Shown: positions 1-10,138 of the stretch, one piece after another
Numbering within the stretch: the first letter of the stretch is position 1
Layout of the letters: each line of letters begins with the position of its first letter
DNA from: an uncultured Succinivibrio sp.
GTDB lineage: Bacteria > Pseudomonadota > Gammaproteobacteria > Enterobacterales > Succinivibrionaceae
Length of the DNA stretch: 64,000 nt
NCBI GenBank assembly: GCA_934218695.1
Contig: CAKQDA010000010.1
Location: forward strand, 1-64,000
Reading direction: 5' to 3'
Translations under genes and position numbers: made by a program
The notes under the pieces: generated by a model
What the model was told of the DNA's origin: nothing
What the model saw: the letters and a program-made list of their open reading frames with translations, nothing else
Databases searched by the model: none

Positions 1-80
1 GTATACTCTTCTTTATCGGAACTTAACAGACTGTCTAGGTTAACTTTATTTTTGTTAGCCTTGACTTCATCTTTCTTCAT
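1..80 (-). CDS. Start of an unidentified protein, cut by the window edge
   Basis: Reading leftward from an ATG at 80, an open frame of 26 codons runs off the left edge of the window. The visible N-terminus (MKKDEVKANKNKVNLDSL...) is strongly charged and lysine-rich, with no signal peptide or known motif. It starts just beyond the efp terminator hairpin, so it is either read through from efp or has a promoter overlapping that hairpin. The Shine-Dalgarno sequence is weak. The product cannot be named, and the frame could be fortuitous. Confidence 0.35.
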   Translation of the reverse strand, partial: MKKDEVKANKNKVNLDSLLSSDKEEY

Positions 81-98
81 AAGTTAATTTCATAACAA

Positions 99-134
99 AA
101 CCCCATTATCAATCATGTGATCAATAATGGGGTT
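99..134 (-). terminator. Rho-independent terminator after efp
   Basis: Perfect 11-bp stem (AACCCCATTAT at 99-109 with ATAATGGGGTT at 124-134) around a 14-nt loop. On the minus strand it is followed by TTTTGTT. It lies 37 bases past the efp stop codon, in the right orientation to end efp transcription. Confidence 0.75.
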
Positions 135-171
135 CATACTAAAATGCCGTTTTTTTATGAGCGAAGTTTAA

Positions 172-735
172 TTAAACACGCTTCTTGAATTCATTGGTAC
201 GAGTATCGATTTCGATCTTGTCGCCAATGTTTACGAAATCAGGTACTGAAATTACATAACCTGTTCCTGCTAAGCGGGCTGGTTTTACAACCTTACCTGA
301 GGTATCGCCTTTAACAGCTGGTTCGGTGTATTCAACTTCACGAACGATTGTGATTGGTAACTCAACTGAAATTGCTTTACCGTTGTAGAAAGTAACCTGA
401 CAAACGTCTTCCATACCATCAATTAAGTAATTTAAAACGTCACCCATGTTGTCTTTTTCGATTTCGTACTGGTTGAACTCTTCGTCCATGAATACGTATA
501 GAGGATCACCATAGTATGAGTATGTGCAATCCTTGTGCTCTAAGATAACGTCATCTAAACGATCATCTGCACGGAATACAGTCTCAGTACCGCCGTTTGA
601 CAGAAGATTCTTTAATTTCATCTTAACAACTGCTGCATTACGACCTGATTTGCTGTACTCAGCCTTCTGAACAACCATTGGGTTGCCGTTTAACATAATT
701 ACGTTGCCAGTACGGATTTCTTGAGCTAACTTCAT
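172..735 (-). CDS. efp: Elongation factor P (Arg32 type)
   Basis: EF-P, 187 residues, the usual length. It enters the ribosomal E site and relieves stalling at polyproline. The KOW-like N domain (about 1-64) is followed by two OB-like domains. The tip of the N-domain loop reads KSGRN, which puts an arginine at residue 32. In this EF-P subfamily Arg32 is rhamnosylated by EarP rather than the lysine being beta-lysylated by EpmA/B. The earP gene is the next gene upstream, which fits. A 231-bp gap separates the two, so efp probably has its own promoter; that gap holds the direct repeat TATAAAACTG twice, which I cannot interpret. Confidence 0.97.
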
Positions 736-2282: not shown

Positions 2283-4553
2283 ATGATTAGATTTATTGTT
2301 AAGAGAGACGGCCGAAAAGTGTCCTTTAATGAGGACAAAATATCCAATGCAATAAGAAAAGCTCTTATTTCAGCACACCCTGATGATAAATCAACTTCTC
2401 AGTATGAGGAAGAATTAGTCGAGAAATTAACAAGACGTGTTGTTTCAGATATTGAAAAACAGAATTTAGAAGAACCTACTGTAGAAAATACACAGGATAT
2501 TATTGAGAAAGTATTAATTCAGGAAGGAATGGCATCTGAGGCTAAGAATTTTATTCTTTACCGTCAGAACAGAACTAATGTCAGAAACTACAATACTGAC
2601 TTAACAAAAATTTATCGTGATTTAACATCAAAGAGCACAGCAGATATGGATTTAAAGCGTGAAAACGCTAATATCGATGCAAATGCTCCTATGGGATTGA
2701 TGTTACGCTTTGGATCAGAAGGTTCTAAAGATTACGTTAGAAGATATGTTTTAAGACCAGAACACTCAATTGCTCATTCTCGTGGTGATATTCATATTCA
2801 CGATTTAGACTTCTACATGCTAACTATCAATTGCTGTCAGATTGGTTTAAAAGATCTGTTTAAACGTGGTTTCAGCACTGGACATGGTTTTTTACGTGAA
2901 CCTCAGTCTATTCAGTCTGCAGCAGCTCTTTGCTGTATAGCAATTCAGTCTAATCAGAATGATATGCATGGTGGTCAGTCAATTCCTTTATTTGAGTATG
3001 ATTTGGCACCATATGTTGCTATTTCTTATTCAAAGCACCTGTGTAAGGTAATATGCATCTGTTTAAGAGATGACAATGCCGATGTGTCTGAATTAAAGTC
3101 ATACTGCAAAGAACTGTATGAAAAGTATGATACCTGCCTGTCAGATGAAGTTCAGTCTCTGATTAAAGCTAAAGTTACAGATGTTTTAAGAAAATACAGT
3201 GACAACGATTCAGATGTATCTAAAAACGCAGATTACATCATGTCTGAATCTATTAAATTAACTGAACGTGAAACATATCAGGCCATGGAAGCCTTGATTC
3301 ATAATTTAAACTCTATGCAATCAAGAGCCGGTGCACAGGTTCCTTTCTCTTCAATCAACTATGGTACAGGTACACAACCTGAACACAGAATGATTATGAA
3401 GAATGTTTTACTTGCTACAGATGCAGGTTTAGGTGGAGGTGAAACACCTATCTTCCCTGTACAGATCTTTAAAGTAAAAGACGGTATCAATACAAAGAAA
3501 GGCGATCCTAACTATGATCTGTTTGAATTAGCATGTAAAGTGTCAGCAAAGAGATTGTTCCCTAACTTCTCTTTCCTAGATGCTCCTTATAATGCTAAAT
3601 ATTACAAACCAGGTCATCCTGAGACTGAAGTAGCTCTAATGGGGTGCCGTACACGTGTTGTATCAAACTATTATGACAAGACCAAGGAAATTATTCCTGG
3701 ACGTGGAAATCTCTCCTTTACAACAATCAATTTACCTAGACTTGCAATCGAAGCACATGGTTCTATAAGCAAATTCTTTGAATCATTAGACAAGATGATT
3801 TATATGGTGTTTGATCAGTTAATGGATCGTTTTGAAGTCATTGCTAAAAAGCAGGTTTTAAATTATCCGTTCTTAATGGGACAAGGTGTTTGGGTAGATT
3901 CAGACAGATTAAATCCAGAAGATACAATTGAAGACGTTATAAAAAACGGTACTATGTCAGTTGGCTTTATCGGTTTGGCTGAATGTCTGGTGGCTTTAAT
4001 AGGCAAACACCATGGTGAGAGTAAAGAAGCTTATGACTTAGGTTATAAGATTATTAAACATATGAGAGATTTAACTGATAAACATACTGTTGATACGGGA
4101 TTGAATTTCTCTTTATTCTCAACTCCAGCTGAAGGTTTATCAGGAAGATTCGTTAAAATTGATAAGAGACTGTATGGTTCTATTCCTGGTGTTACTGATC
4201 GTGAATATTACACAAACAGTTTCCATGTTCCTGTTTATTACGAAATTTCAGCAGCTGATAAGATTAAGACTGAAGGTCCTTTCCATGCATTGTGCAATGC
4301 TGGTTCAATCTCTTATGTAGAAATGGATGGCGATTTAACAAAGAATGTCGAAGCATTTAAGAATGTAATTTTATACATGAAAGAGTGTGGTGTAGGATAC
4401 GGTTCTATTAATCACCCTGTTGATCGCTGCCCTGTATGTAATTATGTAGGAATCATCGGTGATGTTTGTCCTAGATGTGGTCGTAAGGATGGCGAAGGTG
4501 TAAGCATTGAGCGTTTAAGAAAGCTTGGTGTTGGTTGCATCTGCACTGGTTAG
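2283..4553 (+). CDS. nrdD: Anaerobic class III ribonucleotide reductase, large part lacking the glycyl-radical segment
   Basis: NrdD, 756 residues. It reduces ribonucleoside triphosphates to deoxynucleotides without oxygen. An N-terminal ATP-cone (about 1-95, starting IRFIVKRDGRKVSF) is followed by the catalytic 10-stranded barrel. Near the C-terminus a four-cysteine zinc site is intact (C716, C719, C729, C732). The protein then stops after GEGVSIERLRKLGVGCICTG. The normal radical-bearing RRxTGYLVGT segment is absent here; it is found in a separate frame at 4668-4826. The start follows a weak Shine-Dalgarno (GGACTAAAA). Either the enzyme works as two chains or this gene is a recent breakage; the sequence of both parts looks well conserved, which favours function. 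Confidence 0.95.
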   Translation: MIRFIVKRDGRKVSFNEDKISNAIRKALISAHPDDKSTSQYEEELVEKLTRRVVSDIEKQNLEEPTVENTQDIIEKVLIQEGMASEAKNFILYRQNRTNVRNYNTDLTKIYRDLTSKSTADMDLKRENANIDANAPMGLMLRFGSEGSKDYVRRYVLRPEHSIAHSRGDIHIHDLDFYMLTINCCQIGLKDLFKRGFSTGHGFLREPQSIQSAAALCCIAIQSNQNDMHGGQSIPLFEYDLAPYVAISYSKHLCKVICICLRDDNADVSELKSYCKELYEKYDTCLSDEVQSLIKAKVTDVLRKYSDNDSDVSKNADYIMSESIKLTERETYQAMEALIHNLNSMQSRAGAQVPFSSINYGTGTQPEHRMIMKNVLLATDAGLGGGETPIFPVQIFKVKDGINTKKGDPNYDLFELACKVSAKRLFPNFSFLDAPYNAKYYKPGHPETEVALMGCRTRVVSNYYDKTKEIIPGRGNLSFTTINLPRLAIEAHGSISKFFESLDKMIYMVFDQLMDRFEVIAKKQVLNYPFLMGQGVWVDSDRLNPEDTIEDVIKNGTMSVGFIGLAECLVALIGKHHGESKEAYDLGYKIIKHMRDLTDKHTVDTGLNFSLFSTPAEGLSGRFVKIDKRLYGSIPGVTDREYYTNSFHVPVYYEISAADKIKTEGPFHALCNAGSISYVEMDGDLTKNVEAFKNVILYMKECGVGYGSINHPVDRCPVCNYVGIIGDVCPRCGRKDGEGVSIERLRKLGVGCICTG

Positions 4554-4570
4554 CAGTTATCCAATTTAAT

Positions 4571-4607
4571 AAAACCTTCATGACATTATAGAATTAATGG
4601 AGGTTTT
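4571..4607 (+). terminator. Terminator-like hairpin between nrdD and its radical domain
   Basis: AAAACCTTCAT (4571-4581) pairs with ATGGAGGTTTT (4597-4607) with one G-U pair, enclosing a 15-nt loop and followed by a short U-rich run (GUUUUCU). It sits 17 bases after the nrdD stop and about 60 bases before the separate glycyl-radical frame. It could partly uncouple the two transcripts or mark a processing site. Confidence 0.55.
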
Positions 4608-4667
4608 CTATAATCTAAATATTAAAAATAACTTATAACGTATTATTATTTCAGGAGAATGAGTATT

Positions 4668-4826
4668 ATGCAGACAAGACTACATGCAAAAAATGGTGTT
4701 GTAGGTGAAGGTGTTAAGTTCGAGAGAATCAGACGTGTTACTGGTTATCTTGTAGGTACATTAGATCGCTTTAATGATGGCAAGAGAGCTGAAGAAAGAG
4801 ATCGTGTTAAGCACATGTCTGTATAA
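4668..4826 (+). CDS. Stand-alone glycyl-radical domain of class III ribonucleotide reductase
   Basis: A 52-residue frame whose middle and end match the C-terminus of full-length bacterial NrdD: FERIRRVTGYLVGTLDRF, then the conserved tail AEERDRVKH. G26 (in RVTGY) is the expected radical-carrying glycine activated by NrdG. The start at 4668 has a strong Shine-Dalgarno (AGGAG at 4653-4657, 10-nt spacer). An in-frame ATG at 4659 is too close to that site. It ends 6 bases before nrdG, so domain and activase are translated together. By analogy with GrcA/YfiD for pyruvate formate-lyase, I infer that it docks onto NrdD in trans. No other function is apparent. A split gene is clear; two-chain activity is inference. 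Confidence 0.85.
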   Translation: MQTRLHAKNGVVGEGVKFERIRRVTGYLVGTLDRFNDGKRAEERDRVKHMSV

Positions 4827-4832
4827 GTTAAG

Positions 4833-5363
4833 ATGGATGATATAGATTTATCTGTATTAGATAATACAACCTTAAGAATAGCCGGTGCCGTTAAAGAGTC
4901 TATTGTAGATGGCCCCGGTATTAGGTATGTTATTTTTACTCAAGGATGTCCTTTTCATTGTAAAGGTTGCCATAATGTACAGGCTCAGCCTTTAAACGGT
5001 GGAATGGATGTATCCTTAAGAGTTCTTTATGAAGAATTTTGCTCCAATCCTTTAGTTACCGGTGTAACTTTCTCTGGAGGAGAGCCTTTTATCCAATCTA
5101 AATCTTTGGCTGTTTTAGCCAATGTCTTAAAAAAGAAAAATTACTCAATTTGGGTATATTCTGGTTTTACTTTTGATAAACTAGAAAATGATTCCATCAG
5201 AAGACAGTTACTTGAACTTGTTGACGTTGTAGTTGACGGTCCTTTTGTTATGTCAAAAAAATCTTTGGAATTAGATTTTAGGGGATCATCAAATCAGCGA
5301 ATAATCAATGTTCAGGAATCTTTAAAACAACATAAAGTTGTTTTAATGGAAGGATACAAATAA
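4833..5363 (+). CDS. nrdG: Anaerobic ribonucleotide reductase activating protein
   Basis: Radical SAM activase of class III RNR, 176 residues. It uses a [4Fe-4S] cluster and S-adenosylmethionine to generate the glycyl radical. The cluster cysteines are C39, C43 and C46 (GCPFHCKGCHN), the CX3CX2C pattern. The SGGEPF motif (81-86) forms part of the SAM site. It follows the 52-residue glycyl-radical domain by 6 bases and is followed 6 bases later by pqiA, so it appears to belong to a longer operon. Here its substrate would be the separate small domain rather than full-length NrdD. Confidence 0.95.
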   Translation: MDDIDLSVLDNTTLRIAGAVKESIVDGPGIRYVIFTQGCPFHCKGCHNVQAQPLNGGMDVSLRVLYEEFCSNPLVTGVTFSGGEPFIQSKSLAVLANVLKKKNYSIWVYSGFTFDKLENDSIRRQLLELVDVVVDGPFVMSKKSLELDFRGSSNQRIINVQESLKQHKVVLMEGYK

Positions 5364-5369
5364 TAAAAA

Positions 5370-6569
5370 TTGCATAAGACTGTTGTGTGCAGATCCTGCG
5401 ATTTAGCGGTTTCCATCACTCAAATAAAAAAACATTATGACTGCATCTGTCCTAGGTGTGGTCGAAAGTTAATTTCTAATAGTCTTGTAAGAGAAAGTGA
5501 CGTTGCTATAGTCGCTTTTGCAGCCCTTATATTTCTCTTTATCAGCATTGTTGAACCTTTTATGTCTATTTCCGTAATGGGGACTGGTGCAGCAATGTCT
5601 TTAACCTCGATTGTTTCCATTTTAAATAAGCAATGGGGTTCTTTACTTTATGTGTTTCTATTTTTTACATTCTTTTCTCCTGTATCTGTCCTTTCAATAA
5701 TTGTATTTATAGGCGGATTAAAATATAAACCTAACGTACTTTTAGCAAAGTTCTACAGTTTTAACCATAGTATGTGTATGGTTGATGTCTTTGTTTTAGG
5801 TATTGTAGTAAGTTTAATTAAATTAACAGCGCTTGCTGATGTGACTTTTTATGTAGGTTTTTATACTACTTTTATTTTTTCTGTTCTGATGATCTGGTGT
5901 TGTCTAAAATTTAATCCTTCATTACTTTGGGAAAAAATCAAGAATCAGTCTAAGTTAGATTTAGTAGCTGGAAAATCAGCTATGAGTCAGTTCTATAAAG
6001 TATGCCTTGAATGTGGATATGTATTTAAAGCAAAGGATGATATTGATATTTGTCCAAGATGTAAAACTCAAGTTTCCTACAGACGGAAAAATTGCATTTC
6101 TAAAAGTTTGGCTTTACTAATATCTGCTCTAATCCTTTATCTGCCTTCAAATATGTATCCTGTTATGTACACTGAATTTTTAGGTTCTGATACAGGATCT
6201 AATATCATTGAAGGTGTTATAGAAATGTGGCAAATGAACTCATATTTTGTTTCATTTGTAATTTTGTTGGCCTCTATTTTTATACCTGCATTTAAGATTT
6301 GTTCAATGCTCTTTATTCTGTATGCAACAAAATTTTCAAAAATTGTTGTTCATAAGAGAGTAAGCAGGTTATACAGATTTGTTGTTTTTATTGGAAGATG
6401 GTCTCTGATAGACGTTTATGTTGTTATCATCATGTCTTCCATCGTTAAGATTGGTAATTTGTTGGACATTGAGCCAGGATTTGCAATCATTTGTTTCTGC
6501 AGCGTAGTTATTATTACTGTTTTTTCTGCTGAAACTTTTGATGAAAGGCTGATATGGAATAAGGTTTAA
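5370..6569 (+). CDS. pqiA: PqiA family inner-membrane protein
   Basis: Paraquat-inducible protein A, 399 residues, part of the PqiABC envelope lipid-transport system. Two similar halves each begin with a zinc-ribbon-like cysteine set (C7/C10/C27/C30 and C212/C215/C228/C231) followed by about four transmembrane helices (first near 46-62). The start is a TTG at 5370, 6 bases after nrdG, because the first cysteine pair lies immediately downstream and no ATG precedes it. pqiB begins 2 bases after its stop, so translation is coupled. Confidence 0.9.
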   Translation: MHKTVVCRSCDLAVSITQIKKHYDCICPRCGRKLISNSLVRESDVAIVAFAALIFLFISIVEPFMSISVMGTGAAMSLTSIVSILNKQWGSLLYVFLFFTFFSPVSVLSIIVFIGGLKYKPNVLLAKFYSFNHSMCMVDVFVLGIVVSLIKLTALADVTFYVGFYTTFIFSVLMIWCCLKFNPSLLWEKIKNQSKLDLVAGKSAMSQFYKVCLECGYVFKAKDDIDICPRCKTQVSYRRKNCISKSLALLISALILYLPSNMYPVMYTEFLGSDTGSNIIEGVIEMWQMNSYFVSFVILLASIFIPAFKICSMLFILYATKFSKIVVHKRVSRLYRFVVFIGRWSLIDVYVVIIMSSIVKIGNLLDIEPGFAIICFCSVVIITVFSAETFDERLIWNKV

Positions 6570-6571
6570 TT

Positions 6572-8134
6572 ATGGATGAGATTAAAACTGCAAAGTTAAG
6601 AAAACACAAGATCTCGTTATATTGGTTGGTTCCAATAATTGCTCTGATTGCCACCGTCATTCTTATCTGGGAAAATTCGTTTAACAAGGGACCTCTGGTT
6701 TTACTGCATATGGATGATGCTTCTGGCATTGAATCTGGAAAAACTGTAGTTAAGTTCAGATCAGTTGATGTTGGTGTTGTAGAGTCTGTTTCTTTGTCTA
6801 AGGATTTTTCTGGTGCGATAGCTAAAGTCAGAATGTACAGTGATACTGATGATCTGTTAAATGAGGATTCACTGTTTTGGATTGTAAAACCAAGAATTCA
6901 ATATCACAGTATTACTGGTCTGGAAACTATTTTATCAGGTTCATATATTCAGATTTATAAAGGAAAATCAGACAAATATTCAACAGAATTTGTGTCACTA
7001 AAAGATGCTCCATTAGGTTTGGATGAGAATGGAATACCAATAAAACTGTTTGGACATACAATAGGTGTTATACCAAATGGAACACAGATTAACTATAAAG
7101 GTTTCAATATTGGTATGGTTGTAAGTTCATCCTATGATACTGATAAGGATGATGTTGTATACAATGCATTAATCAGAAAATCATATTCAGATCTTGTTAA
7201 CTCAAACTCTGTATTTTGGGTAGATTCTGGATTTGATTTTAGCCTTAGTCCTTCAGGTGTTAATTTTAGAGTTCCAAATTTAGAAAATATTATTTCAGGA
7301 AGTATCAACGTAAATCAATTTTCAAACGATAAAGGAAATCCTTTAAAACCAAATGATTCTTTTGATGTTTATAAAGATAAAAATGCTGCTAAATATGAAA
7401 ATTTAAAGGACAATCCAAAATTTGTTGTTTTAATTGAAAATGATGTCAAAAACATTGCTGTTGGCAGTAAGGTTTACTTTAGGGGAATGAATATAGGTCA
7501 GGTTATTAAAATACCTTGGTATGAAAAAGATTCTGAGGTATTTGACTACAAAAATAAGATCCCTGCTTTAATTGTATTGGATACTGACAAGGAAAGTTCC
7601 ATAAAGGCTAAAAGTGTATTCGCACAAAATTTGAAAAATAATACTTTATGTGCTCAAATTGATAATACCAGCCTTATTGCATCTGGAAACATTATCAAAT
7701 TATTTATACAGCCTCATAGTAAATGTCATTCTAAAAACACCTTATATAGAAATGTTGATGTAATTCCATTAGTTAAAAATGATAATATGGTGGAAGAATT
7801 ACAGGTTTTTGCTAAGAAATTAAATTCTCTTGATTTAAATGCTGTTACTAATAATCTAAACTCAACACTTTTGAGTTTGAATAGCACTTTAAAATCAATT
7901 AAGAATGTTACAGATTCTGTTAATAAACAGCAGACTGTAGATAATTTAAACAGTGTTCTTGAAAGCTACAGCAAAAATTCAGAACTGTATAAATCATTAC
8001 TGGATGTTTCTAATAAGTTGAATCAGTCTATCAATGAGCTAAATCCAACAATAAAGAAAGTTGGACAAAAGAGTAATTCATTGGTTTTTTCATCTGAAGA
8101 AAAAGACATCGAACCCAAGATTTCTGAGAGGTAA
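6572..8134 (+). CDS. pqiB: PqiB MCE-domain lipid transport protein
   Basis: MCE protein, 520 residues, slightly shorter than the E. coli homologue. One N-terminal transmembrane helix (about 14-33) anchors it in the inner membrane. Three MCE repeats follow, each with the DASGIESGKTVVKFRSV-type lead-in (first near 47; later ones near 160 and 290). The C-terminal region (about 400-500) is Asn/Leu/Ser-rich and probably helical, matching the needle that spans the periplasm in E. coli PqiB. It lies between pqiA and pqiC. Confidence 0.93.
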   Translation: MDEIKTAKLRKHKISLYWLVPIIALIATVILIWENSFNKGPLVLLHMDDASGIESGKTVVKFRSVDVGVVESVSLSKDFSGAIAKVRMYSDTDDLLNEDSLFWIVKPRIQYHSITGLETILSGSYIQIYKGKSDKYSTEFVSLKDAPLGLDENGIPIKLFGHTIGVIPNGTQINYKGFNIGMVVSSSYDTDKDDVVYNALIRKSYSDLVNSNSVFWVDSGFDFSLSPSGVNFRVPNLENIISGSINVNQFSNDKGNPLKPNDSFDVYKDKNAAKYENLKDNPKFVVLIENDVKNIAVGSKVYFRGMNIGQVIKIPWYEKDSEVFDYKNKIPALIVLDTDKESSIKAKSVFAQNLKNNTLCAQIDNTSLIASGNIIKLFIQPHSKCHSKNTLYRNVDVIPLVKNDNMVEELQVFAKKLNSLDLNAVTNNLNSTLLSLNSTLKSIKNVTDSVNKQQTVDNLNSVLESYSKNSELYKSLLDVSNKLNQSINELNPTIKKVGQKSNSLVFSSEEKDIEPKISER

Positions 8135-8136
8135 AA

Positions 8137-8670
8137 ATGAAAAAAATCAGCTTAACAGTTATTACCTCAGTATTGTTGTGTTCAATGCCATGTGCATGCG
8201 TTTCTAATCATGTAAATTACGACAGATACTCATTAACTGAAGATATAAGTTCTTCTTCTTTTATTGTAAAAAGAAATTTAAATGTTGAACTTAATAATGT
8301 TTTAAATGACGGTGGCATTGTAATTAAGACTTCAGACGTAAGTTTACAGTCAGCTAACAATCACCGCTGGGCATCTGATTTAAAGGAACAATTAAAGGTT
8401 CTTTTAAATGACTCTTTAGATAAAGGGCATATAAGTTCAGATCTATCTTTAAATGTTTACGTAAGCAAGTTTTACGGCACTACAGACGGCAATTGCATCA
8501 TAGATATGAGTATAGATTCATTTAAAAATGGAAAGGCTCTATTTTCAAAAAATTACAGTTTCAACAAACGACAGAGTAAAGATGGATATCAATCTCTGGT
8601 TGACAGTCTTAAATATGGATTTGAGTCATTGAGTAAAGAAATATCCAATGATTTAAAAAAATATAACTAA
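8137..8670 (+). CDS. pqiC: PqiC outer-membrane lipoprotein
   Basis: PqiC/YmbA family, 177 residues. It should cap the PqiB needle at the outer membrane. The short N-terminal hydrophobic segment ends PCAC, and C21 is the likely lipidated cysteine because the following CVSNHVNYDRYSL aligns with the start of mature E. coli PqiC. The lipobox lacks the usual Leu/Val at -3, so processing may be weak or use a variant site. It starts 2 bases after the pqiB stop and is the last gene of the operon. Confidence 0.85.
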   Translation: MKKISLTVITSVLLCSMPCACVSNHVNYDRYSLTEDISSSSFIVKRNLNVELNNVLNDGGIVIKTSDVSLQSANNHRWASDLKEQLKVLLNDSLDKGHISSDLSLNVYVSKFYGTTDGNCIIDMSIDSFKNGKALFSKNYSFNKRQSKDGYQSLVDSLKYGFESLSKEISNDLKKYN

Positions 8671-8707
8671 AAGGAAGAGTAAAAGTCAGTATTACTTATC
8701 AAGTGCA

Positions 8708-8729
8708 GCACCAGACCTATGTCTGGTGC
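8708..8729. terminator. Hairpin between convergent pqiC and mnmE
   Basis: Perfect 9-bp stem GCACCAGAC / GTCTGGTGC with a 4-base loop. It lies between two converging genes but lacks a T-tract on either side, so the terminator role is inferred from position. Confidence 0.5.
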
Positions 8730-8764
8730 GTAATATGGTAAAAAGTTTGATTACTCTGAAAGGT

Positions 8765-10138
8765 TTATTTACCAATACAGAAAGTACTGAAAATTTTACC
8801 TAAGATATCATCAGAGGTTACTTTTCCTGTAATTTCACCTAAATGGTCCTGAGCTTCTTTTATTTCTTGGGCGCACAGTACTAAATCACCTGTTTTGATG
8901 ATTTCTATTGCATTTTCAATGTGTTTATATGAGTTTTCAAGCTCAGTCAGATGTCTTCTTCTTGCAATGAACATTCCTTCAACAGGAGTAATCTGTAGTA
9001 AATCAGCAAGTTTCTTCTTGAGTTCATCAAGACCATCTTCATTCTTGGTTGATGATGCAATCTTATTAAATGCTATAAATGGATCTTTTGATAAAAGATC
9101 TTTTACCTCTTGGCATGTGCCTTTATCTGACTTTGAAACAACTACCAGAATTCTATTTTCGTTGGATTCAAATTCTTTTACTTTTTTTAGTGTTTCTAAG
9201 GCATCTGTTGGAACAGTTGAACCATCTAACATAAAGATCACAAGATCTGCTTTTTTCAGTTCATCGATAGCTTTTTTTATACCAATAGCCTCAATTTCAT
9301 CTGCAGGTGTATCTCTGATACCTGCCGTATCAGTAATAACTACTGGAACTCCCTCAATTTCAATTTGGGCAGTTAGTACATCTCTTGTTGTGCCTGGTAT
9401 GTTTGTAACAATAGCCTTATCAGAACCTGCAAGAGCATTTAGTAAGCTTGATTTACCTGCGTTTGGAGCTCCAGCCAGTACTATTCTTGCGCCTTCATTT
9501 AATTTGACACCCTGATTGGCTATCTTTAAAGTTTTTGCTGCTAATTGCTCTATATCATGTAAAGCAAGATCTGTTTTTCCTGATTCAAAGAAGTCTTCGT
9601 GTTCTTCTGGAAAATCTAGGCAAGCTTCAAGTCTTACTCTAAAGTTTGTGATTTGCTCTGATAATGAAGTTAAGTTTTCTGAAAAAGCTCCTTCAAGTGA
9701 AGCTAAAGCAGCTTTAGCAGCGCTTTGCGACCCTGCAGAAATAAGATCTTCTACTGCTTCAGCTGCAGTCAAATCCATCTTATTATTTAAAAAAGCTCTT
9801 TTTGTGAATTCTCCTGGCTCAGCCTGTCTGACACCATCGATACTCAGGACTGCATTTAATACTCTTTGTGGAGCAATGTTTCCGCCGTGCCCCTGTAATT
9901 CGATGACATCTTCGCCAGTGTATGAATTCGGTGAAGAAAAATATAAAAGCACACCTTCATCTATGACTTCATCTTTTAATTTGAACTGTTTGAAATAAGC
10001 CTTACGAGCTTTTGGTGTGATATTGGTTAAGGTTTTTGCTACTGTTAAAGCCTGAGGACCAGAAACTCTCACAATAGCAATGCCACCCCTGCCATGTGGG
10101 GTAGCGATTGCTGCAATTGTATCTTCGATTGTAGACAT
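8765..10138 (-). CDS. mnmE: tRNA modification GTPase MnmE
   Basis: MnmE (TrmE), 457 residues. With MnmG it installs the cmnm5/mnm5 group on wobble U34 of several tRNAs. The N-terminal folate-binding domain (about 1-120) is followed by a helical domain split by a Ras-like G domain: P-loop GAPNAGKS (223-230), GTTRD (249-253), DTAG (270-273). The C-terminus ends in FCIGK with the essential cysteine C454. It is the last gene of the rpmH-rnpA-yidD-yidC-mnmE group, 6 bases after yidC. Confidence 0.97.
   Translation of the reverse strand: MSTIEDTIAAIATPHGRGGIAIVRVSGPQALTVAKTLTNITPKARKAYFKQFKLKDEVIDEGVLLYFSSPNSYTGEDVIELQGHGGNIAPQRVLNAVLSIDGVRQAEPGEFTKRAFLNNKMDLTAAEAVEDLISAGSQSAAKAALASLEGAFSENLTSLSEQITNFRVRLEACLDFPEEHEDFFESGKTDLALHDIEQLAAKTLKIANQGVKLNEGARIVLAGAPNAGKSSLLNALAGSDKAIVTNIPGTTRDVLTAQIEIEGVPVVITDTAGIRDTPADEIEAIGIKKAIDELKKADLVIFMLDGSTVPTDALETLKKVKEFESNENRILVVVSKSDKGTCQEVKDLLSKDPFIAFNKIASSTKNEDGLDELKKKLADLLQITPVEGMFIARRRHLTELENSYKHIENAIEIIKTGDLVLCAQEIKEAQDHLGEITGKVTSDDILGKIFSTFCIGK

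Follow-up and report, generated by a model that had tools for sequence, protein, structure and literature searches.

A class III ribonucleotide reductase gene separated from its glycyl-radical domain in Succinivibrio and its relatives

Introduction

In class III ribonucleotide reductase (RNR), the activase NrdG turns the glycine of an RRVTGYL motif into a radical, which oxidises a cysteine in the finger loop of NrdD. Catalysis by NrdD needs the radical domain, which in class III enzymes is a covalent C-terminal part of the protein. The family is represented by the models NF005497 and PF13597 and by structures from phage T4, Prevotella copri and Thermotoga maritima. We describe here an nrdD-nrdG locus in the first 64,000 nucleotides of contig CAKQDA010000010.1 of an uncultured Succinivibrio sp. 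(GCA_934218695.1); this whole stretch is called the window below. The locus shares with the described systems the body, the ATP-cone, the cysteines, the zinc ribbon, the neighbouring NrdG and the RRVTGYL motif, which belongs to this family, but its glycyl-radical domain is encoded by a gene of its own, as a separate protein that has paralogues. We consider it highly likely that the locus encodes a two-chain class III RNR with a separate, NrdG-charged radical subunit that would be replaceable after cleavage by oxygen.

Small autonomous glycyl-radical proteins that repeat the C-terminal end of an enzyme are known from bacteria and phages as spare parts of pyruvate formate-lyase (PFL), namely GrcA (YfiD) of Escherichia coli and Y06I of phage T4. 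According to Andorfer et al. 2021 (PMC8683613), oxygen cuts PFL at the radical glycine and YfiD or Y06I replaces the cut end; only the two PFL spare parts count there as validated, and others for glycyl-radical enzymes are treated as a possibility. The protein described here is alike in being small and autonomous and in repeating an enzyme's end. It differs in that its likely target is RNR instead of PFL, and in that the main enzyme of the split genomes has no radical domain of its own.

RNR genes in pieces are also known. They include phage nrdD genes split by introns, homing endonucleases or inteins (PMC3653736, PMC12363816) and the split nrdA of phage Aeh1 (PMC3653736), with most breaks ascribed to mobile elements and that of phiAS4 unexplained. 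In contrast, the break considered here lies at a domain border, is conserved in a family, has a spacer of down to 18 nt and leaves a radical piece that also occurs alone. The split class II enzyme NrdJab (PMC9669993) likewise consists of two chains across a lineage, but it belongs to a different class and its second chain is not a glycyl-radical carrier. An initial annotation of the window knew of no described case for NrdD. A search of the full-text literature (titles and abstract starts) likewise found neither an NrdD with a detached radical domain nor an NrdD spare part; most subscription papers lie outside its coverage, and a prior description is possible.

The locus would provide a naturally detached, family-conserved radical subunit for an essential DNA-precursor enzyme. 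Named strains with the detached subunit include Succinivibrio dextrinosolvens DSM 3072 and Anaerobiospirillum succiniciproducens DSM 6400, and the system allows direct tests of whether a radical is installed in trans, whether subunits are exchanged after damage by oxygen and whether phages exploit the deoxynucleotide (dNTP) synthesis of their host. An annotation that sees the body alone would mistake such an RNR for a truncated one.

Two reading frames that make up one NrdD

The upstream frame, here called the body, matches NF005497 with 1037.7 bits (cut-off 764) over model positions 1-715 of 746, and the small open reading frame (ORF) behind it matches positions 710-744 (E 1.7e-12). Against PF13597 the body covers positions 1-532 of 562 (618.4 bits, cut-off 26.2) and the small ORF positions 532-562. 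Because these coverages complement each other almost exactly, the two ORFs together correspond to one complete NrdD. The body also matches an ATP-cone in the Pfam scan, and it has the features of a class III RNR in its score above cut-off, its active-site cysteines and zinc ribbon and the nearby nrdG, but not the covalent radical domain. Residues C184, C455, C719, C729 and C732 are invariant in a 56-row alignment (A1), which misaligned the radical segment and was not used for folding. We take C184 to be the active-site cysteine of the barrel and C455 the residue that, presumably as in other NrdDs, takes the thiyl radical.

The small protein resembles GrcA/YfiD in standing alone with a glycyl-radical motif, RRVTGYL. 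An identity as a GrcA- or PFL-type spare part was not borne out by the family scans, which gave no row for PF01228 (PFL-type Gly_radical) or GrcA at E values up to 1 and returned NrdD models as best matches. The matches to NF005497 and PF13597 support the initial annotation of this frame as an NrdD-type glycyl-radical protein.

Table 1. Features of the nrdD-nrdG locus in the window
Feature	Position	Strand	Evidence
nrdD body (ATP-cone, catalytic barrel, zinc ribbon; no glycyl-radical domain), 756 aa, TAG stop	2283..4553	+	NF005497, PF13597
C184 codon, conserved barrel active-site cysteine	2832..2834	+	invariant column, alignment A1
C455 codon (MGCRT), conserved finger-loop cysteine	3645..3647	+	invariant in A1; aligned with MGCRS of T4 NrdD
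Zinc ribbon CPVC ... CPRC	4428..4478	+	sequence; C719, C729, C732 invariant in A1
20-residue C-terminal tail GEGVSIERLRKLGVGCICTG, where the radical domain would be	4491..4550	+	related tail in other split bodies
AGGAG ribosome-binding site of the small ORF	4653..4657	+	sequence; a similar purine-rich stretch precedes most homologues
Stand-alone NrdD glycyl-radical subunit, 52 aa, ATG 4668	4668..4826	+	NF005497, PF13597, dN/dS, invariant positions
Gly26 codon (RRVTGYL), presumed radical glycine	4743..4745	+	G821 in read-through numbering, invariant in 48-row alignment A3
nrdG, radical SAM activase	4833..5363	+	TIGR02491, 145 bits (cut-off 126.1)

The layout (Table 1) agrees with what had been annotated: NrdD ends after its zinc site, with only the 20-residue tail beyond CPVC...CPRC, and a separate small frame with its own AGGAG site stands 6 bases before nrdG. 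The spacer between nrdD and the small ORF is 114 nt, both ORFs are in the same reading frame, and an alternative ATG for the small ORF lies at 4659. Judged from the sequence, both halves of the radical machinery are intact in the window, on two chains. The 64 kb contain no second radical ORF and no second NrdD body. A spacer hairpin was considered as an attenuator and rejected, its fold being no better than that of shuffled sequences (z -0.66), and promoter-like sites in the window do not exceed the chance level.

Conservation of the break

Relatives were obtained from a scan of one-genome-per-species contigs, of which the best 80 of 104 were taken. The Succinivibrionaceae-type loci number 35 (L001-L034 and L040, a few with broader or odd source labels), and 34 of these are informative, the contig of L030 ending inside nrdD. 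In all 34 the end of the body falls at the same position, with the radical ORF as a separate frame downstream. The initial annotation had named the search for the same break in Succinivibrionaceae as a check and an unbroken nrdD in relatives as a refutation; the break was present throughout, and the relatives are broken alike. Spacers from body to radical ORF range from 18 to 372 nt (counted to a script-picked ATG), all three relative frames occur, and the body stops are a mixture of TAA, TAG and TGA. A purine-rich site precedes most of the small ORFs, with the ATG at about the same place in each.

The small gene is under purifying selection: 29 of 43 aligned positions are invariant among 35 sequences including that of the window, and the median dN/dS is 0.043 for the 226 pairs (of 595) in which dS could be measured, the remaining pairs being saturated at synonymous sites or too similar. 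Behind the zinc ribbon, split bodies of the Succinivibrionaceae type and of Clostridia have a common tail motif like GEGV(S/P)xEKLxxL (window 4491-4550, L258-L260, L270-L289), which is similar to the beginning of the radical subunit (GEGVxFERIRR). This shared tail could possibly be a docking helix or the scar of a duplication. A redox CxC at the body tail was rejected as a functional feature; it is found in many bodies, but L011 is without it.

Ribonucleotide reductases of the family

A survey with PF13597 covered 56 genomes, mostly draft assemblies, of the family of S. dextrinosolvens. The body lacks a radical domain in 36 of them (in G039 it lies in contig pieces), NrdD is unbroken in 14 (matched in G056 from position 107), and no body was found in 6, three of which have the radical gene only. 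Each of the 36 split-body genomes has a stand-alone radical gene; 29 have at least two and 7 only one. None of the 36 has an unbroken NrdD (full-length PF13597), so the second full-length nrdD that the initial annotation had considered as a refutation was not encountered among them. The class I/II large subunit (PF02867) was detected in 12 of the 56 genomes, all 12 with split bodies. In the other 24 split genomes, mostly drafts, no RNR other than the split NrdD was found. These include S. dextrinosolvens DSM 3072 and G035, where one contig of 3.47 Mb carries nrdD together with both radical genes.

Radical genes away from nrdD

The radical proteins encoded at a distance from nrdD (L081-L091 and most of L123-L141) have sequences such as MENYCRLRPNHAGIVGQGVKFERIRRVTGYLVGTLDRFN... 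Six Succinivibrionaceae loci (L082, L084, L090, L123, L125, L139) have a similar neighbourhood, with relatives of a zinc-protease gene, of a 7TM-transglutaminase gene and of a gene for a 267-271-residue protein without Pfam match, these families having been scanned for L123 only; accD is nearby too in four of the six. To judge from its nrdD region, G044 seems to be the genome of L001, which among the best 80 of 104 relatives is the one most closely related to the window; a copy in G044 (L138) has the same radical ORF as virus contig L183. L183 carries an integrase, an anti-repressor and a reverse transcriptase, and L138 a tail-fibre gene. The segment L183:3434-8737 is prophage-like, with the radical gene between the reverse transcriptase and the anti-repressor/integrase end. 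In L126 (G025) two radical ORFs, 5613-5849 and 9250-9486, lie about 3.6 kb apart. An NrdG motif occurs within 1.5 kb downstream of 29/34 linked Succinivibrionaceae-type copies and 14/23 Clostridia copies, but of 0/29 testable copies away from nrdD and 1/72 testable virus copies.

The virus loci L142-L255, among which a few contigs occur twice, contain 113 radical ORFs, of which 22 are fused with a body and the other 91 stand alone in the locus. Whole virus records with a radical gene were examined for 44 of 80 virus loci; 42 of these records, which may be fragments, have no NrdD body match. The other two combine a body without radical domain with a separate radical ORF, the body of G077 itself being in two frames. 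Among the 14 family genomes with unbroken NrdD, a radical gene was found only in G050, on phage contig L122. There (5323-9761) a 612-aa body is followed by a gene with a peptidoglycan-binding domain, an 86-aa radical protein (8420-8680), a small ORF and, identified by its motif alone, an nrdG-like ORF, and the unbroken nrdD belongs to the host genome. Virus contigs found with the L122 body are partly fused and partly split. In Eggerthella phage EL753P1 (L256, OP172808) nrdD has a large insertion in the body, and a downstream frame of 49 aa with a degenerate radical motif overlaps a gene annotated as a hypothetical protein.

Clostridia and other bacteria

The split architecture is not special to Succinivibrionaceae and also occurs in Clostridia and phages. 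The earlier interpretation of the window is therefore kept as to the split NrdD and the identity of the radical protein, but its restriction to the family was too narrow. Among 196 genomes of the class Clostridia the small protein had a match in 59, mostly within full-length frames; in 7 the match lies in a short frame of 54-104 aa (stop-to-stop frames). One of these 7 is Defluviitalea (L266), and the weak stand-alone frames of Defluviitalea and Heliobacterium (L267) are given no weight here. Among 185 genomes of Gammaproteobacteria the stand-alone form was seen only in S. dextrinosolvens and a fused match in one other, E. coli-type NrdD ends being too distant for this query. The G228 family of Clostridia has matches in 51 of 61 genomes. 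The best match is in a short frame (59-165 aa) in 35, of which 34 lack a full-length-frame match (the exception is G516), and 12 further genomes have a full-length NrdD frame together with a separate radical-domain frame of 94-137 aa. In the G275 family, 29 of 60 genomes have a match, and in 11 the best one is in a short frame (57-73 aa). In 20 Clostridia loci chosen for their short frames (17 from the G228 family, 3 from the G275 family) the enzyme is split in every case, the radical ORF being the neighbour of the body on the same strand. Among the source names of close, stand-alone radical proteins is Butyricicoccus.

In L262 a fused NrdD is directly followed by a radical protein with a 101-aa frame, which reads as the literal layout of an enzyme plus spare part. 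A second type of stand-alone radical protein, of 86 to about 100 aa and with a similar N-terminal part, is found in L261-L263 and in L122 (8420-8680), sometimes beside a fused NrdD as in L262.

Proposed mechanism and alternatives

The above observations suggest how a two-chain enzyme might work. The ATP-cone, the barrel with the catalytic cysteines and the zinc ribbon would form one protein and the hairpin a separate subunit of about 50 residues, the loop of which would insert into the body barrel. NrdG would charge the radical subunit, after which the radical would pass to the body cysteine. Translation of the subunit would begin at a start site of its own next to nrdD-nrdG, most of these genomes would supply it from additional loci or prophages as well, and a subunit cleaved by oxygen could be replaced without remaking the 756-residue body. 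We infer binding, radical installation in trans and exchange after oxygen damage. A tethered AlphaFold model superposes on T4 NrdD (1h7b) with 1.8 Å over 522 residues, residues 132..828 of the model lying on 26..587 of the 1h7b chain, and the superposed span ends in the radical loop.

The idea of a replaceable subunit gains indirect support from the extra copies in 29 of 36 genomes, from the 42 of 44 virus records with a radical gene and no body, and from the Clostridia that pair a fused NrdD with a separate radical ORF. The extra and phage copies would fit replacement by a detached subunit. In an extended form of this idea, which concerns several lineages of anaerobes, a common pool would supply the radical carrier as an exchangeable subunit, with linked, separately sited and phage versions competing for one body. 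Phages that bring only the subunit of about 50 residues would then need very little coding sequence to activate or repair the dNTP synthesis of the host, as the RNR counterpart of GrcA and T4 Y06I. We regard the chances of this extension as evenly balanced.

Several points weigh against a replaceable subunit in a two-chain RNR. In a control alignment without fused homologues the radical loop was left unplaced, with pLDDT values of 28-49 over residues 811-847, and the docking model is no independent proof of binding because its alignment leaned on fused homologues. The extra and phage copies could have other roles. One split genome (G015) has a second, partial PF13597 match (positions 164-504), and 12 of the 36 also have a class I/II RNR, so that the split enzyme is not their sole RNR. 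The absences reported above were mostly observed in draft genomes and in possibly fragmentary virus records.

Three other explanations can be considered. In the first, the enzyme is an obligate two-subunit RNR that holds its radical subunit tightly and does not exchange it, the gene having undergone neutral fission without a repair role. The position of the linked copy within the nrdD-nrdG cluster, with the NrdG motif close behind 29 of 34 copies, would agree with this, as would the single radical gene of 7 split genomes. A tightly held subunit does not account as readily for the additional copies in the other 29, for radical genes in virus records without a body match, or for separate radical ORFs beside fused NrdDs in some Clostridia; we consider this explanation possible without being probable.

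The second explanation is that recoding, splicing or an intein makes a single chain of the two frames, or that an assembly error separated them. The ORFs of the window do share a reading frame, and intron- and intein-split phage nrdD genes are known (PMC3653736). An intron, intein or homing endonuclease at the break was not recognised, and the spacers (114 nt in the window, 18-372 nt in relatives) are too short for one in many cases; no Rfam search was made. Since spacer and frame vary among the 34 informative relatives, all of them broken, an assembly or frameshift error is excluded. The mixed stops and similarly placed ATG, the radical copies on other contigs and the gene that separates the body from the radical ORF in phage contig L122 also argue against joining, which is already refuted for the relatives with frame differences and is highly improbable overall. 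The third explanation, a decaying or non-catalytic body without radical domain and the small ORF as its leftover, is barely credible in view of the invariant catalytic residues, the strong purifying selection on the small gene and the 24 split genomes without a detected class I/II RNR.

Evolutionary history

In a tree of 111 bodies, made by a quick search in which the program flagged long branches, the split bodies of the Succinivibrionaceae type (30 rows) group together with an SH-aLRT of 99. Nine unbroken NrdDs of the same family lie far off across long branches, together with a T4-like Aeromonas phage NrdD. The best rows from outside the family, among the best 80 of 104 relatives, are from Clostridia, with 53-55% identity. 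The split label changes 7 times on the tree, at least 4 of these changes being forced by supported branches, which speaks against a single origin of all splits; none of 500 shuffles reaches the observed number. A simple reading would be that the split genera acquired a Clostridia-like NrdD and that there were several fusions or fissions, many of them in phages, with a direction left unsettled by the tree. The split NrdD of Succinivibrionaceae may thus have come from Clostridia-like bacteria.

With a loose post-hoc pattern, the tail motif was found in 17 of 18 distinct tails of the Succinivibrionaceae type, 18 of 22 from Clostridia and 4 of 14 from phages. This hints at one older origin for the splits of the first two groups and a few phages, while the other phage splits look independent. 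Just before FxRIRR, G-x-G or G-x-N occurs in 157 of 181 stand-alone but only 8 of 70 fused proteins, a count of related rows, many gathered with a stand-alone query, that omits 4 stand-alone and 15 fused ORFs in which the searched motif was absent. Two unlike forms of NrdD are thus present in the family of S. dextrinosolvens, the split one and an unbroken one, the latter of a distant, T4-like lineage in the nine cases placed in the tree.

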